Assembly: GCF_011207455.1 (NCBI RefSeq)
Contig: NZ_CP048877.1
Coordinates: 1,728,576 to 1,792,575 of the forward strand
Reading direction: 5' to 3'
From: Thermosulfuriphilus ammonigenes
GTDB taxonomy: Bacteria; Desulfobacterota; Thermodesulfobacteria; Thermodesulfobacteriales; ST65
Length of the DNA: 64,000 bases
The notes under the pieces were generated by a model. The model searched no databases, had not been told where the DNA came from, and saw only the letters and a program-made list of their open reading frames with translations. Below, in pieces: positions 24,911 through 33,318 of this stretch. The translations under genes and the position numbers were made by a program. The first letter of the stretch is position 1, and each line of letters opens with the position of its first letter.

Positions 24911-26662
24911 TTAAGTCTTTTGAACACCGGCGTCAACTGCGCTGTGAGGACGAAGGTGGCGGAGTCGAAGTCGTAGAAATGTCTGGCCCCTGAAATCATG
25001 GAGTTCGGGGGTGACGGCCAGTTCAAAGGATTCAAGATCTTCTTGGGCCAAGTTGGCCATGCCGAAGGCCACGGCAGGGAGGGTCAGACCATCCTGCCAG
25101 AGAAGAAGCTGGAGGTGGCCATTGCCCATAGTTTTTTGTTGCCGCACCTTGAACCCCGAAAGAGTAAAGATTGGTTCCGGCCAGCCGGGGCCAAAGGGTT
25201 CAAGATGCGGGAAAAGTTTCAAGAATTCGGGATCAAGGAGATCCTTTATGGTGACCCGGGCATCAACCTTGAGGGCCGATACCGGAGGGGCACTGATCAG
25301 GGCCTCTTCTACGGCCTGAAAGAAGGACCTTTTGAAGGGCTCGAGATTAGAGATGTGGAGGGCTAGTCCGGCGGCGGCGGCATGGCCTCCAAAGCCCAGG
25401 AGGTGCTCTCGGCAACGGCTGAGGAGCCGGTACAGGTGAAGCCCCTCGGGACAGCGTCCGGATCCTTTAGCCAGCCCGTTTTCATCAATCGATAGAAGGA
25501 CCACCGGTTGAAGAAGCTGTTCCTGGATTTTGGCGGCTACTATCCCCAGGACACCTTTGGGCCAGTTACTTCCAGCCAAGACCTGAGCCGGAGCCTCTGG
25601 TTCTATCATGGCCAGAGCCTCTTTGAGGAGCTCAGCCTCTAGGCGTTGGCGCTGGCTGTTTAGCTGGCCAAGTTTGTGAGCCAGCTCTTGAGCCTCTTCT
25701 GTTTTTTCGGTGGTTAGAAGTCTAAAGGCCAGCAGGGCTTCTTCCAGGCGGCCTGCGGCATTGATACGCGGCCCTAGTCGGAAGGCCACCTCGGTGGTCC
25801 CCACTCTGGCCCCTTCAAGACCGCTTTCAGCTTTAAGGGCCCGAATGCCTGGACGATGGGCCTGGCTTAAAAGATCTAGCCCGATCTTCACTAAGGTGCG
25901 GTTCTCCCCTCTAAGAGGGGCCATGTCGGCTACGGTCCCCAGGGCGACCAGATCCAGGAGCTCTCGAAGGTTGGGCATGGTCTCCCGAGATAGCCTTCCC
26001 TGCCGGTAAAGTCGGCCTCTTACAGCCCTGGCCAGATTGAGGGCCACCCCTACTCCGGCCAGGTTTTTTTCGGGATAGCGACAGTCTCTTCTCTGGGGGT
26101 TGACTACCGCCAAGGCCGGAGGAAGTTCTGTGGGCACCTGATGATGATCGGTGATGATAACCTCCATGCCCGCCTCTCGGGCCAAGGCGGTGGCCTCATG
26201 AGCGGTTATACCGCAATCAACCGTAATGACTAACCGGGCTCCGGTTTCCTTAAGACGGCTGATGAGGTGGGCGTGAAAGCCGTAACCGTCTTCTTCTCGG
26301 TGAGGAAAGAAGACCTCTACCGGATGACCTAAACGCCTGAAGAAGTGCCAAAGGAGGGCCGTGGCTGTAACTCCATCGGCGTCATAGTCCCCATAGATGA
26401 GAATCTTTTCCCTGCGGGAGATGGCCAGGATAATTCGAGCCACAGCCCGGTCCATGTCAGCCATAAGGAAGGGGTCATGGAGTCGAGATAGATTGGGGAA
26501 GAGGGCTTCTCTGGCTTCAGCGGCCTTCCCTATGCCTCGATGAAAGAGTATCCGGGCGATGAGAGGGGGCAGGCCAGATTCCCTGAGGAAATGCCGCAGA
26601 CGGGCCTGATCTGCGAGATAGTTGAGCCACTGCTTCACGGCCCAAAGACTAGCTGTCTCCAT
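24911..26662 (-). CDS. recJ: Single-stranded-DNA exonuclease RecJ
   Basis: 583 residues from the ATG at 26662 (a TTG 4 codons earlier is possible). DHH phosphoesterase motifs GDYDADGVTATALL, VDCGI and ITDHHQVP; the DHHA1 GGHAAAAGLAL motif; and a C-terminal OB-like domain (HLQLLLWQDGLTLPAVAFGM). A 5'-3' ssDNA exonuclease of recombination and mismatch repair. Upstream of and same strand as the phosphohexomutase gene. Confidence 0.93.
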   Translation of the reverse strand: METASLWAVKQWLNYLADQARLRHFLRESGLPPLIARILFHRGIGKAAEAREALFPNLSRLHDPFLMADMDRAVARIILAISRREKILIYGDYDADGVTATALLWHFFRRLGHPVEVFFPHREEDGYGFHAHLISRLKETGARLVITVDCGITAHEATALAREAGMEVIITDHHQVPTELPPALAVVNPQRRDCRYPEKNLAGVGVALNLARAVRGRLYRQGRLSRETMPNLRELLDLVALGTVADMAPLRGENRTLVKIGLDLLSQAHRPGIRALKAESGLEGARVGTTEVAFRLGPRINAAGRLEEALLAFRLLTTEKTEEAQELAHKLGQLNSQRQRLEAELLKEALAMIEPEAPAQVLAGSNWPKGVLGIVAAKIQEQLLQPVVLLSIDENGLAKGSGRCPEGLHLYRLLSRCREHLLGFGGHAAAAGLALHISNLEPFKRSFFQAVEEALISAPPVSALKVDARVTIKDLLDPEFLKLFPHLEPFGPGWPEPIFTLSGFKVRQQKTMGNGHLQLLLWQDGLTLPAVAFGMANLAQEDLESFELAVTPELHDFRGQTFLRLRLRHLRPHSAVDAGVQKT

Positions 26663-26686
26663 TTCAAAGATCAAGGCGATTCCCGT

Positions 26687-26701
26687 GCTTCATTTTGAAA
26701 C
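26687..26701. promoter_or_regulatory. GTTTC-N5-GAAAC-like site upstream of the cytochrome gene
   Basis: GCTTCATTTTGAAAC, one mismatch to the palindrome. The run TTCATTTTGAAACA is identical to the one at TauE 2 (17509). It lies immediately upstream of the -35 element at 26711, a usual place for an activator. It could equally act on recJ, which diverges from here. Confidence 0.45.
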
Positions 26702-26710
26702 AGAAAATCC

Positions 26711-26740
26711 TTGACTCCTGATGCAAGGTGTGTCTTTAAT
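26711..26740 (+). promoter_or_regulatory. Sigma-70-type promoter for the cytochrome gene
   Basis: TTGACT at 26711-26716 and TTTAAT at 26735-26740, 18-base spacer. A leader of about 55 AT-rich bases follows, ending in GGGGAGGGGG before the ATG. Confidence 0.5.
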
Positions 26741-26801
26741 CTCTATAGGAAACTAAAATTTCCTAAAATTCTTAAAATTTTAATTTTTAGGGGAGGGGGT
26801 T

Positions 26802-28103
26802 ATGAAATCTTTTGCCTTGCTACTTCTCTCCTTTTGTTTTCTCTCCGGGCTCGGCGCCTCCAGTAGGGCGGCCCAGATAGACAGTCTCCAAGAGCTGATT
26901 AAGCGCTATGATTCTTCCTCCTGCAAAGAATGTCATCAAGAGATCTATGAAGAGTGGCAAAAATCCATGCACGCCCGTTCCATCTTCGGTCGTCTGGGGA
27001 GGACTTCGGCCACCCTGATAACCACCATTGAAAAAGGACTTAAACGCTGGCCCTATTCCGGGGTCAAAGAACCGGAGGACGTGCGTATAAAACATCTCAT
27101 GGGATGCGCTAAATGTCATCTGCCCCAGCTAGCCCAGGCCAGTGATCAGGTTGCCCAGGAGTTGGTGGAGAACCTTTATGCCTGGTATGAGGACGACGAT
27201 GAGGAGGCCGAGGCCCGTTTGAAAAGCCTCAACATCGGCTGTCTCGTCTGTCACAACCTTAAGGCTATCACCCACAAATGGGTGGACGGGCCGCCAGATC
27301 CTAAGGCTGTCTATGGCGACAAGGTTGGTTCTCATGAGGATGAGACATATCCCCTTCTCAAAAAGAGCCCCATAATGGGAGAGTCTATCCTCTGCGGCCA
27401 GTGTCATGGCCTGGGGCCCAATCTGGAATTGGATAATCCCACTCAGTGCGCCACCCTCTATGGTAGCTACCTTTTTGCCTATGTTGCTGAAGGTGGTCAT
27501 GAAACCTGCCAAGACTGTCATATGCGTCGCTCCGGCAAAGGCCATGATATTCAGTCCTACAGGGATCCGGCCATGTACCAACAGGCTGTGGCCATAGAGG
27601 TGGATGGTCTGGCTTACTACTGGCGTAAAAGCAAGGCCGAAGGGGTCATACCTCTGGGGGTGATCAGAGTGGCCCTTACTAACCGGGCTGGTCATGCCAT
27701 CCCCGATGGCTGACCTACCCCCAACCGGGTGGTCCTGGAGGTGACCGCCACAACCCCTGAGGGAGAAGAAGTCTATCGAAATTCGGTAATTTACATGCCC
27801 CATCCAGGCAGGATGTGCCGGGGGGCAGAGATGGGCCGAGGACCTTACGAAAAATGTGGTCTGGTTCGCGAGACCAGCCTGCCTCCCGGAAAGACGATCC
27901 ACCAGAGCTTTGAGATCACCTTTCCCTATCAGGATATGGTTAAAGATGGCCGCTTCGTGGATAGAATCCTTAAGACCAAAAGACTAAATACCCGGGTAAG
28001 GCTATGGTATCTTCCCTTTGGCGGCTTTGATGGCAATGAAGTCCTCTGGTTTGAGAAAGACCTTTCTCTGGAACTGAAGGGAGATTGGGTCTGGAAGAGA
28101 TAG
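26802..28103 (+). CDS. Pentahaem cytochrome c with in-frame TGA (selenocysteine candidate)
   Basis: Signal peptide (about 1-23), then five CxxCH haem sites: CKECH, CAKCH, CLVCH, CGQCH and CQDCH. The frame meets TGA at 27711-27713 (codon 304) in the context NRAGHAIPDG-TGA-PTPNRVVLEV and continues uninterrupted for 129 more codons in the same family-like style to 28103. I read it as one 433-residue selenoprotein; the segment after the TGA has no start codon or ribosome-binding site of its own. The GHAIPDG turn resembles the GHxxPTG stretch of other multihaem proteins. Two cysteines near the C-terminus (RMCRG, EKCGL) are not haem sites. It would sit in the periplasm or be exported and carry electrons; the partner is unknown. 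Confidence 0.82.
27712..27746 (+). promoter_or_regulatory. Candidate bacterial SECIS region
   Basis: Two mutually exclusive hairpins follow the TGA. (A) GACC-U-ACCC / GGGU-GGUC, eight pairs with one bulged U, loop CCAACC (27712-27734). (B) GGUC / GACC with loop CUGGAGGU, starting 17 bases after the TGA (27731-27746). B has the G-rich apical loop and distance expected of a bacterial SECIS; A is more stable. Not folded by software. Confidence 0.5.
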
Positions 28104-28145
28104 TCTTTTTGGCTTCTGCTTCTTAGCTTCTGGTTATATAAGGGA

Positions 28146-28184
28146 GCCGGGGAAAGACATAGATCCTGCTTTCCCCGGCTTTTT
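28146..28184 (+). terminator. Intrinsic terminator after the cytochrome gene
   Basis: Stem GCCGGGGAAAG / CTTTCCCCGGC (11 bp), 12-base loop, then five T. It lies 42 bases past the cytochrome stop. Confidence 0.88.
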
Positions 28185-28215
28185 AAAGGCCCTTTTTCAG
28201 AGTAAATAAGAGACC

Positions 28216-29373
28216 GTGATCCGGGTCCTTCATACCTCAGACTGGCATCTTGGCAAGACCTTCGAAGGAACAGATTTTTCCCTCCTTGAAGAACAGGAAG
28301 CAGCCCTTCAGGAACTGGTTGAGCTTGTCCAGGCCGAGGACTTCCATTTGGTGGTAGTGGCCGGAGATATCTTTGACCACTATCTGCCCCCGGCGACGGC
28401 CCAGCGCCTCTTCTATGACACCTTGGCGGAGCTTTCCGAGGGAGGGAAGCGGCCAGTGGTGGTTATCGCCGGCAATCATGACTCTCCGGATCTTCTCACC
28501 TCGGCCCGGGGCTTTACCCTGAACCAAGGGGTAGTTATGGCCGGCCGGCCGGGGGAGCTAGAGGCCTGGGAGCACCAGACCAGAAACTTCAGGCTCGTGG
28601 TGCGAGGCCCTCAATTAAAGATTGATTTCCCTCAGGGCGCGCTGACCCTCTTTCTCCTGCCCTACCCTTCGGAGGTAAGGCTTTCGGGGGAGGGTAGCCT
28701 GACCAATCGGCTCCGGTCCCTGGCCGCCTACCTGCCCCTGGGGGAGGTGGATGTTCTCCTGGGGCATATCTTTCTTGAGCGAGGGGAGCTGGCCGGCTCG
28801 GAACGGCAGATCCTGGGTGATCTGGCAGTCCTTCCCCGGGAGTTGCTCCCTCCGGCCAGGATTATGGCCTTGGGGCACCTTCATGGCTACCAGCGTTTCC
28901 GAGACGCCTGCTATAGTGGTTCTATCTTTCCTTTTTCCCGCCAGGAGGCCCGCCGACGTTCAAAAAAGTTTTTCTCTCTCATTGAATTGCCAGATGAGGG
29001 AGAGCCGCGGCTTGAGGCCATTCCCATTACCCGGCCGAAGTCAGTGGCCGTGGTGACGGCAGAGACTCCGGATGAGGCCTTACTTCTGGCTGAAGACAGG
29101 CCCAAGGAGCTGGTTTTCCTGGAGATTTCTCGACCCCCCAGTGGTCCGGAGACTATCGAAAGACTCAAAAAGGCCTTCTCCGGTCGGCTCTTAGGGCTTC
29201 GTTTTGCCCCGCCTCAGCCATCTGAGGCTCAACTGGGCCCTTCGGATACCAGAGGCCTTACCGATCGGGATCTTTTTGTGGAGTTTTATCGCCGTCTTTA
29301 TCAAAAAGACCCTCCGGAACCTCTTCTTTCGCTCTTTCTCAGACTGATGTCCCAGGTCGGGGAGATAGCTTAG
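28216..29373 (+). CDS. sbcD: SbcD-family DNA exonuclease subunit
   Basis: 385 residues from GTG. Metallophosphoesterase motifs in order: TSDWHLGK, VAGDIFDHY, AGNHDSPDLL, LLGHIFLERG and ALGHLHGYQR. SbcD is the Mre11-like nuclease of the SbcCD hairpin-cleaving complex. The usual downstream sbcC is missing: the next gene is convergent and unrelated, 3 bases past this stop. A partner elsewhere in the genome is likely. Confidence 0.88.
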   Translation: MIRVLHTSDWHLGKTFEGTDFSLLEEQEAALQELVELVQAEDFHLVVVAGDIFDHYLPPATAQRLFYDTLAELSEGGKRPVVVIAGNHDSPDLLTSARGFTLNQGVVMAGRPGELEAWEHQTRNFRLVVRGPQLKIDFPQGALTLFLLPYPSEVRLSGEGSLTNRLRSLAAYLPLGEVDVLLGHIFLERGELAGSERQILGDLAVLPRELLPPARIMALGHLHGYQRFRDACYSGSIFPFSRQEARRRSKKFFSLIELPDEGEPRLEAIPITRPKSVAVVTAETPDEALLLAEDRPKELVFLEISRPPSGPETIERLKKAFSGRLLGLRFAPPQPSEAQLGPSDTRGLTDRDLFVEFYRRLYQKDPPEPLLSLFLRLMSQVGEIA

Positions 29374-29376
29374 TTT

Positions 29377-31680
29377 CTATTTGGGGCTATCTGGTGGCTC
29401 TTCCAGAAGGGAGTAGTGGCCCTCAAAGAAGGCTTTTACGTATCGTTTCCTGGTGGCCTCATCCTGAAGGGGCATATCAAGTTGACGGGTGAATCCCATA
29501 AGACGTCCGAGTTGATCCAGCCGCTCGGCAATCTCCTCCTCCCTCCCCTCGATAAAGGCAGCAAAGACAGCGTCGGCCTTGGTTTCCACCCGGAAGTCCA
29601 GCTCTCGAAGAATATCCACCAGGAGCAGAGAACGCTGGATCCGTCCTTCAGCTCCGGCTCCTCCTCCGCCGAATCGGAAAAAGAGATAGTTGTGGCTCGG
29701 GAATTCGGTCTTTCGGACCTCTACCGCCAGAAGATGATAGGCCATCCGACAGCGAAGAAAGAGATAATCAGGCAGGAGGATACCAAACCCCCGTCCGCCC
29801 TCCTGGGTAACATCACGATGGACAAAGGAGCGAGAGAGCACCGAGAGAAAGCCCCCCAGGTGAAATTCTACTGGTCCTGACCAGCTGACTCCCTCATGGG
29901 TCATCCCCCGCCAGAGGTCCAGAAAGGGCCGGCAGAGAATATCAGAGATGGTTATCTCTCGTCGAAAGGCGGCTAAAGAAGAAAGGCCCCGTCCCAGGTT
30001 AAGGAAATAAAAGGAAAGAGGTACCCGGGGATCTCGAAGGAGATGGGTAAGACTAAGGGCCTCAGGGCTATGGAAGCTTTCCCAGAAGACGGCTTCCAAA
30101 CCCAGGTGAAGGATGTCTGCCGGACCAATGATCTCCTCGGCTTCAACGGCTACCAAAGGATCTTCGGCTCCCAGGATTAAAGGAATGTGAATTTCAAACA
30201 GGAACCGCCATTTATCCGGAAGGGGAGGGTTTTTGGTCTTGAGCAAAGAGCGTTTCCAGCCCCGATAAAGCCGTCCTCTTTCGGTGTCTAGGCTGATCAG
30301 AGTCTGATCTTCTATCAGATCTGGGGGCAGACCAAGGGCCTCCGGCTTGATCTCCAGCGGGGATTCGGTCTCCGACCGTTGATTGAAGGTTCCAGCCAGA
30401 GATCCCGGCCCTATGGGTCTGACTTCGGCCTCTAAGACGGCTTCGGATTCCAGAAGCCTCGGTGGAGAGACCTTAAGGGGAAAGATACCCACCAGCCTGA
30501 GACGACCTCCTTCTTCCAGAAGCCAGCGAATTTCCCGGGGGCCTTCGAAATGGGCCTCAAGGAGCTGGCCATATTCCCAGAGCCGGAGCAGGTGTCTGTC
30601 TTCAAGAGGTGATAGTCTCTGGAGCTCCGGGGAAAGACTTTTTTCTTCCGGAAGGCCTTCTGATACTAAAAAGAGGCCTTTTTTCCTTGACCCACTCATT
30701 CCAGAGATGATTTTTTTCTGGTGGCGATCAATAAGGAAGACATCAGCCCCACCACCGGCTTCAATGATCCCTCCAACTCCCCAGAAGGCCACAGCCAGGG
30801 CCAAATTTTCACCCGGAAAGCGGGGGTCCAGGGAGTAAAAAACCCCCGAGGCAATGACCTTTGTCTTGGCGACGACCAGACAGGGGAGAAAGAAGGCCCT
30901 GGGAAGACCGAGGTAGGCCCTTTTCTCAAGGGCCGCCAAAAGGGCCAGGCCACAGGTCCTCTGAAGGCTATCTTGCCCCGGGTTCTCGGTAGCGGCCAGG
31001 CCCAAGAGCCCCTGTTCCTGGTGACCAAAGGCCAGAAATATGGCTTTGTTGGCCTCTAGTATCTCTGGGACTGAAGCAAGCTCTGGGCCGAAAAGTCGGC
31101 CAAGCCTTTCCTGCCAGAGGCCGTGGTCCTGGTTAGAGAGGATCTCTTCTAATTCTTGATGATTAAGCCCCATGGGGCCCGTTTCAGGGATGATCACTAC
31201 TCCCCGAGGGACAGGAAGACCGAGGGCTCTGGCCTCAGCTAACTCGGCCAGAGGTCGACCAATGACTTCGGCAGCTGTAAGGTCAAGACTGCTTAAGGGA
31301 AGGATTCTCCCCCGCTCCTCTTCTATAGTGCTGATTTGCTTCTGAATCTCCTCAATGTGGGCAAAAAGCCAGGCATATCGATTTTCTGTAAGATCGTTGA
31401 GGATACGGACATTGTTTTTAAGCTCAAAGATAAGGTCTTCAAAACGGGACTTTAGCCACCCCGGCTTTGTCCCTCGGCTGAGACGAAAGCGAATCTCTTC
31501 TAATACCTGAAGGGAAAGCAGCCTGGTCTCCAAAAAGTCCATAAGGGCTATATTTCTTCGTTTGAGCCCCGGAGATCCGCCTCCAAGAAAGAGACGGGCC
31601 AGTTGCCCTTCCTCTGGAGGACTCTTTTCTTCTTTGCTAAAAAGCCAGTCTTTTACCTTCTGCCAGAGAGAGTCTTTCAT
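29377..31680 (-). CDS. PEP-synthase-like paralogue P1, degenerate
   Basis: 767 residues. A helical N-terminal domain (about 30-130) and a degenerate PPDK/ATP-grasp region resemble the protein at 39013. The VRSSAxxED loop is lost (AFGHQEQGLLGLAATENPGQ in its place), although SGVFYSLDPRFPGENL keeps the family shape. The phosphohistidine swivelling domain is not recognisable. The C-terminal ~270 residues match the C-terminal domain of the 39013 protein closely (FRREITISDI, WRGMTHEGVSW, FRFGGGGAGAEGR, QLGRLMGFTRQLDM). Starts at the base after the stop of P2. Probably a non-catalytic family member with a binding or regulatory role. Confidence 0.75.
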   Translation of the reverse strand: MKDSLWQKVKDWLFSKEEKSPPEEGQLARLFLGGGSPGLKRRNIALMDFLETRLLSLQVLEEIRFRLSRGTKPGWLKSRFEDLIFELKNNVRILNDLTENRYAWLFAHIEEIQKQISTIEEERGRILPLSSLDLTAAEVIGRPLAELAEARALGLPVPRGVVIIPETGPMGLNHQELEEILSNQDHGLWQERLGRLFGPELASVPEILEANKAIFLAFGHQEQGLLGLAATENPGQDSLQRTCGLALLAALEKRAYLGLPRAFFLPCLVVAKTKVIASGVFYSLDPRFPGENLALAVAFWGVGGIIEAGGGADVFLIDRHQKKIISGMSGSRKKGLFLVSEGLPEEKSLSPELQRLSPLEDRHLLRLWEYGQLLEAHFEGPREIRWLLEEGGRLRLVGIFPLKVSPPRLLESEAVLEAEVRPIGPGSLAGTFNQRSETESPLEIKPEALGLPPDLIEDQTLISLDTERGRLYRGWKRSLLKTKNPPLPDKWRFLFEIHIPLILGAEDPLVAVEAEEIIGPADILHLGLEAVFWESFHSPEALSLTHLLRDPRVPLSFYFLNLGRGLSSLAAFRREITISDILCRPFLDLWRGMTHEGVSWSGPVEFHLGGFLSVLSRSFVHRDVTQEGGRGFGILLPDYLFLRCRMAYHLLAVEVRKTEFPSHNYLFFRFGGGGAGAEGRIQRSLLLVDILRELDFRVETKADAVFAAFIEGREEEIAERLDQLGRLMGFTRQLDMPLQDEATRKRYVKAFFEGHYSLLEEPPDSPK

Positions 31681-33318
31681 CTATTTTGAGATTGGTACAC
31701 GGTCTTTTATGAAGACCAGTAAATCAACAATGGTTTGGCAATCTCTGGGCTCAGATGCATGAACCGGAGGGGGAAAAGACATGGAGCCGATATGATTTAA
31801 CATCCTCCGAAGGATACGGCGAGGAGCGTTTTGTTGCCAGCGGCAGTGGAGAGGGGGCTCTGGGTTCATTATCCAACCTCCGGGGGCAATTCGTCCCTCA
31901 TTGGCATCCAGGGTGAGATTACCCGCGGGAATTTCGTCTTTAGGATCCAGAACAAGAAACGGTATCTTTTTCTGACGACAGACAGAGGCCAGAAAGCTGG
32001 CTGGGTTGCCCTCTCGGGCCAGAATTCCTAGAGCCGGATGGACCGGCCGGTGGCTGTCGTTGTTAATCAGGAGAATTCCTTCTCCCCCCTCTTCTTTAGA
32101 GGATTCGTCCTGGAGAGGGCCACTTACAAGACCGGGACTGCCAGCCCGGAAAAGGGCTGTTGCCGGAATCCTTCCCCCGAAACTCTCTCCTTGGAGGTAT
32201 AATTGCGAGATGAGGAACTCTCCTCCCCTTACCTTAAGCCATCGCATCTTAAGGCTTTGTTCCAGGTAATTGGCCGCCCTGTTAGCCAACAGGGCCAGCT
32301 GGGTAATCTCCTCGGGGCCGAGAAAGGCCTCTGGTAGGGCCTCTCGGCTCTTAAATGGAGGTTGGGGGTCAAAAACTATTTTAATAGAGGGGGCATCAAA
32401 CTGGATGCTTAGCTCCTCAGATGATATGGAAAGCCAGCCGCTGAGACTGGGGGCTACCGTTTCTCCGGCTATAACTATCGGACGTAACCCCCCAAGATGA
32501 TCTTCTGTTAAAAGGAGACGCTGATCAGTCAGTAAGGTCAAGATGAGGCTTCGATAGGCCTCAAGTATAGCCTTTGCCTCTGGAGAGACGCCGGTAATCC
32601 TTTTTTTTACTTCCGGGAAAGAAAGAGAAACTTCTAGGCTGAGAGATTTCTGGAACTTTCCTTCCTCTTTATGGCCGAGAGATTTTTTTAACGCCTCTTC
32701 CAGGCGGACAGGAAAGGACGCCGCTTCTATCTTCTGGCGGATTTCAGTAGCCATTTTTAGGCCCTCTTCCTGCCCCAGACTACCTTCCAGCCTAAGCCAC
32801 TCCTCTTCGAGATCATTTTCACGGAGCAAACAAGAGAAGGCCTCCCTGGTGAAGAGAAGGCCGTCGGTGACTGGAAAACGGAGATAATTTTTAACCTCGG
32901 CCAAGGCGGCCAAGGAGGCTCCGGCCCAGGAAGAGTCTTCAAGGTCTAAGGAGCTAAGGGGAATAATCAGCCGCTGGCCCCTTGGAGGCCTTCCCTCAAT
33001 GACGGCCTCTATACGGCTGCAGATTTCCTCAAACCTTTCGGCCAGAAGAAGATGTTTCCCTTCGGTAAGAGAGAAAAACTCATTCAGGATTTCGATCATC
33101 CTCCGGCGCAGACAGCGATAGAGATGACGAACTTTCTTGGGAGCTAGGGGCTGATTGTTTCCCAGCAGATCTTCCATGGCCTTGATTCCCACTTCAACCT
33201 CTTCGATGAGTCCATCAAGAAGCGTTAGTCGGTCCTGAAAAAAGAATTCCTGGAGGTCAATGACCGGCCGTTCTCTTTCAGGTTGAAAGATTTTTTTAAG
33301 GCGTCTTAAAAATTCCAT
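31681..33318 (-). CDS. PEP-synthase-like paralogue P2, truncated and degenerate
   Basis: 545 residues. Helical N-terminal domain as in the protein at 36040 (MEFLRRLKKIFQPERERPVI vs MGLLERISAFFRPKGPAKER). The ATP-grasp core has lost its RSS motif and the LQxRP end. In the swivelling domain the phospho-accepting histidine is replaced by phenylalanine (F442 in GNPASFLASVCRQKKIPFLV; the 36040 protein has SPTSHMATLCREFRIPAIV). It ends shortly after this domain and lacks the shared C-terminal domain. No internal stop or frameshift, so it is a conserved-looking pseudo-enzyme rather than debris. Operon with P1; promoter not identified. Confidence 0.72.
   Translation of the reverse strand: MEFLRRLKKIFQPERERPVIDLQEFFFQDRLTLLDGLIEEVEVGIKAMEDLLGNNQPLAPKKVRHLYRCLRRRMIEILNEFFSLTEGKHLLLAERFEEICSRIEAVIEGRPPRGQRLIIPLSSLDLEDSSWAGASLAALAEVKNYLRFPVTDGLLFTREAFSCLLRENDLEEEWLRLEGSLGQEEGLKMATEIRQKIEAASFPVRLEEALKKSLGHKEEGKFQKSLSLEVSLSFPEVKKRITGVSPEAKAILEAYRSLILTLLTDQRLLLTEDHLGGLRPIVIAGETVAPSLSGWLSISSEELSIQFDAPSIKIVFDPQPPFKSREALPEAFLGPEEITQLALLANRAANYLEQSLKMRWLKVRGGEFLISQLYLQGESFGGRIPATALFRAGSPGLVSGPLQDESSKEEGGEGILLINNDSHRPVHPALGILAREGNPASFLASVCRQKKIPFLVLDPKDEIPAGNLTLDANEGRIAPGGWIMNPEPPLHCRWQQNAPRRILRRMLNHIGSMSFPPPVHASEPRDCQTIVDLLVFIKDRVPISK

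Follow-up and report, generated by a model that had tools for sequence, protein, structure and literature searches.

The closest described systems are the ExtKL protein of Geobacter sulfurreducens and the structurally solved MccSep. G. sulfurreducens ExtKL (GSU2937-2936) carries five haems on one chain that runs across a TGA and is predicted to contain selenocysteine (Sec) at that TGA (PMC5877670, PMC6148476, PMC13188914), and a 2026 review counts it among prokaryotic selenoproteins (PMC13188914). Its gene sits in extHIJKLMNOPQS (PMC5877670), and extHIJKL has been studied among several putative outer-membrane conduit clusters (PMC6148476). The authors of PMC5877670 cite a higher abundance of ExtKL with Fe(III) and mention a preliminary study that suggested a part in selenite reduction, and high expression of a homologue has been described in sulfate reducers that partner methanotrophs (PMC10553843). 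The roles to which published work points are extracellular electron transfer or the reduction of selenite. MccSep, the "multiheme cytochrome c selenoprotein", is present in the PDB as 9WT8, 9WT9, 9WTA, 9WTB and 9WTC, including a U325A mutant, and our literature search found no relevant paper accompanying these structures. Finally, small pentahaem cytochromes of cable bacteria have been described as structural homologues of ExtKL, and their likeness to the penta-haem cytochrome c552 of Thermochromatium tepidum (PDB 5ZE8) was noted in the same work (PMC11976967).

The gene described here, found in a window of 64,000 nucleotides from Thermosulfuriphilus ammonigenes, is a further member of this already described ExtKL/MccSep family, in another lineage (Table 1). 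It shares with G. sulfurreducens ExtKL the five haems, the single chain across the TGA and the predicted Sec at that TGA, but stands alone between recJ and sbcD. MccSep is a homologue, not identical in sequence, that aligns over residues 22-426 (E 4e-157), and its residue 325, given as X in one chain and as Ala in U325A, falls exactly on codon 304. The closest fold in an April 2026 structure library is T. tepidum c552 (E 8e-15), which nevertheless differs at 20% identity and a TM of 0.54-0.60. A Candidatus Electrothrix (cable bacteria) locus (L119) has the TGA as here, although the cable bacteria pentahaem cytochrome is only ~29% identical and belongs to a PDGULWS branch.

Table 1. Features of the ExtKL-type locus and its immediate neighbours, in window coordinates.
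Feature	Position	Strand	Evidence
extKL-type gene, pentahaem c-type cytochrome, predicted selenoprotein, 433 aa, Sec at 304	26802..28103	+	NF040886 588.6 bits; 5 CXXCH
Signal peptide (Sec-type), ~24 residues	26802..26873	+	direct reading of translation; low pLDDT 1-21
UGA predicted to be read as selenocysteine, codon 304	27711..27713	+	TGA/Cys in relatives; aligned with X325 / U325A of MccSep 9wt8/9wt9
C-terminal beta-sandwich part (ExtL of split annotation), no separate gene	27714..28100	+	115 bits to NF040886 alone; predicted strands
Likely SECIS hairpin, GGUGGUC-CUGGAGGU-GACCGCC	27728..27749	+	synonymous conservation at codons 310-315; pairing kept in Sec members; fold -12.2 kcal/mol
Intrinsic terminator, 12-bp stem, 12-nt loop, T-tract	28145..28184	+	direct sequence reading
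recJ, divergent upstream neighbour	24911..26674	-	TIGR00644 532.5 bits
sbcD, downstream neighbour, function unrelated	28216..29373	+	TIGR00619 152.3 bits

The frame opens with an ATG just 3′ of a strong purine-rich ribosome-binding site (ggggaggggg tt atg), has CXXCH motifs at residues 41, 102, 147, 198 and 236, and contains a single in-frame TGA beyond which 129 sense codons lead to a TAG at 28101-28103. An earlier, sequence-only reading had placed one TGA at 27711 (codon 304), followed by 129 codons in the same frame, a normal stop and a good terminator; the coordinates proved exact, the codon count held, and the terminator is seen directly, its arms AGCCGGGGAAAG (28145-28156) and CTTTCCCCGGCT (28169-28180) being followed by T's. 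With its long loop this terminator is absent from the list of our terminator scan, which accepted loops of up to 8 nt. The whole protein matches the NCBIfam model NF040886, "multiheme c-type cytochrome (seleno)protein ExtKL", well above the cut-off of 250 bits and over profile positions 11-422 of 423. When the halves were scanned separately the front scored 448.8 bits and the 129-codon tail reached E 3e-33, and since the tail alone matches the family of the front part, it is no chance frame.

We searched 395 genomes of the phylum with the NF040886 profile and added 80 loci taken from named genomes; most members above the cut-off in the phylum genomes have exactly one TGA. Homologues were inspected for Cys or Sec at codon 304: of the 101 non-redundant relatives with a residue at the aligned site, 88 carry a TGA, 11 have Cys, one has Ile and one Val. 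Record titles of the TGA-bearing relatives name Deltaproteobacteria/Desulfobulbaceae, Nitrospirae, Myxococcales and Rokubacteria. The replacement of Sec by Cys in some members is as expected if the selenol were to perform thiol-like redox chemistry. The Ile and Val forms (L056 and L045), which carry PDSI or PDSV in place of PDG-U/C, each adjoin another ExtKL copy, the neighbour in one genome having Cys (L056 beside L057), and appear to have lost the selenol or thiol after duplication. At the level of sequence, these two relatives show that Sec or Cys is not strictly required in every ExtKL copy. A separate Cys-form copy (L059, G269:C11) is interrupted by an in-frame TAA before the conserved site, and may be a pseudogene or the product of an assembly error.

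Judged by its sequence, the organism does use selenocysteine. A search of the genome for selA, selB, selC and selD, which the sequence-only reading had set as a check, found all of them on the same 2.29-Mb chromosome: SelA (554.7 bits), SelB (393 bits), SelD (375.9 bits) and a tRNA-Sec (76.4 bits) for which ARAGORN gives the anticodon tca (UCA). The selD gene (G000:C1:748881-749804, minus strand) has an in-frame TGA of its own, within an N-terminal ASG-U-AAKLGPGDL that is the known Sec/Cys site of SelD, and represents a second selenoprotein family in the genome. Furthermore, outside the window, beside a histidine kinase gene and one that resembles a CCA-adding enzyme, lies another ExtKL gene (L064 7423-8625; G000:C1, ~242.4-243.6 kb), which also contains a single in-frame TGA. 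Its product is ~36% identical and of the PDGULWSGK branch, and the gene carries the identical hairpin sequence GGTGGTCCTGGAAGTGACCGC 3′ of its TGA.

Hairpins with a G-rich loop or a bulged U had been described after the TGA, and the candidate at 27728-27749 bears both: pairing of the inner CU with GG closes a GGA loop and leaves the U at 27742 bulged out, giving a hairpin of bacterial SECIS type. We measured synonymous conservation per codon as how often two Sec members sharing an amino acid also share the codon, which gave a gene-wide mean of 0.42 (sd 0.13, 337 positions). Codons 310-315 (nt 27729-27746) reach 1.00, 0.86, 0.95, 0.78, 0.86 and 0.85, making them six of the seven most synonymously conserved codons in the gene, with ordinary codons on either side. 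The inner five stem pairs can form in 92-100% of Sec members, while the two outermost are less constant (66% and 48%). The inner four pairs are kept in 92-97% of Sec rows as against 38-54% of non-Sec rows (n = 13; Cys, Ile or Val), such that the constraint accompanies the TGA, and members that lack this codon show little or none of it. Formal covariation is limited because the inner stem columns hardly vary among Sec members, and our case for a SECIS is that synonymous constraint accompanies the TGA, on which grounds the hairpin is likely to be the SECIS. Folding of the 53 nt after the TGA alone was no better than shuffles (z 0.13). For isolated stretches of 48-53 nt the predicted minimum is a competing hairpin with the UGA at its start; it is likewise no better than shuffles, and would be covered by the ribosome during UGA decoding. 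An Rfam scan of 26000-29000 returned nothing near a gathering score.

The same constraint bears on a rival reading in which a suppressor inserts one of the standard amino acids (Trp or Cys) at the TGA, without selenium. Cys at the aligned site in 11 relatives is what such a reading could appeal to, but the genome holds the full Sec machinery and the hairpin constraint follows the TGA, leaving suppression very improbable.

We propose instead that the gene encodes a periplasmic five-haem ExtKL (MccSep) cytochrome in which SelB and tRNA-Sec read the UGA at 27711 as Sec under the direction of the SECIS hairpin, a reading that we regard as almost certain. The sequence-only reading had claimed selenocysteine at this TGA, and the Sec machinery, the TGA/Cys site and the SECIS hairpin together lend that claim support. 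By this model, SelB and tRNA-Sec would decode the UGA with the GGA loop positioned ~23 nt 3′ of it, and the protein would, going by what is known of the family, be exported and loaded with five haems. Sec304 may then act as a redox-active or substrate-binding residue to which the haems supply electrons; that it forms a redox site of its own, as had also been suggested, is plausible, and a Sec-based reduction or electron-exit site is the likeliest role, favoured with modest confidence. It seems unlikely that Sec304 does more than stand in for a catalytic thiol, for example by ligating a haem directly or by serving as the exit through which electrons pass from the haem chain to selenium chemistry, possibly partnered by the invariant Cys216.

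Cys216 (window 27447-27449) is a non-haem cysteine found in 99 of the 99 relatives with a residue there, the Cys and Ile/Val forms included. Its candidacy as selenenylsulfide partner of Sec304 is weakened by its retention in the Ile/Val copies.

The AlphaFold2 model, built from the protein and 44 relatives, has a mean pLDDT of 91.7, with high confidence for the C-terminal fold that spans the TGA. The haem-binding helical part is predicted to end near residue 262 and to be followed by an all-beta part from 263 to 424, in which strands 263-277 and 281-294 precede the Sec and the strands of 309-424 follow it. Sec304 itself is placed in a loop (295-308) between two beta strands, shortly after the invariant G297-H298. 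A chain ending at the TGA would keep just two strands of the beta domain, and this speaks against ExtK and ExtL being separate proteins. The possibility of two genes, one for a truncated five-haem cytochrome (ExtK) and the other for a small ExtL begun at an internal GTG, has precedent in older annotations that split extK from extL (PMC6148476), and an in-frame GTG does exist at 27729. The tail had been described as lacking any start codon or ribosome-binding site of its own: the second half of that statement stands, no Shine-Dalgarno being seen before the GTG, while the first fails on the GTG itself. Judged by the alignment, however, this codon is not a conserved start, because it is GTG in merely 49 of the 88 Sec homologues, with Leu or Ala codons in most others. 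As the Cys-type homologues run as one uninterrupted ORF, the split would cut the predicted beta-sandwich and the solved MccSep is one chain, two genes are still less probable than suppression. Least credible, to the point of being negligible, is a sequencing error or recent nonsense mutation; nothing was found in favour of either, and the identical TGA is common to 88 of the 101 relatives across several phyla, which excludes both, and recurs in the same-genome paralogue.

To the known family, the work described here adds one more member, in this lineage, together with a same-genome paralogue and a precisely placed SECIS candidate. A selenocysteine apparently encoded in an electron-transfer cytochrome is seen in a further lineage, the localised SECIS candidate offers a testable RNA element for the whole ExtKL family, and the natural Cys, Ile and Val variants provide ready-made comparisons for the contribution of selenium. 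The extHIJKLMNOPQS setting, a Geobacter trait outside the family model, does not occur here. Across 56 related loci no conserved neighbours were found beyond the ExtKL gene itself and scattered common genes, and the Geobacter ext cluster is for this reason best seen as a local arrangement. Further along the window, two adjoining genes lie on the minus strand: that at 31681-33318 has no NCBIfam match, and that at 29377-31680 weakly resembles part of PEP synthase, below every cut-off.
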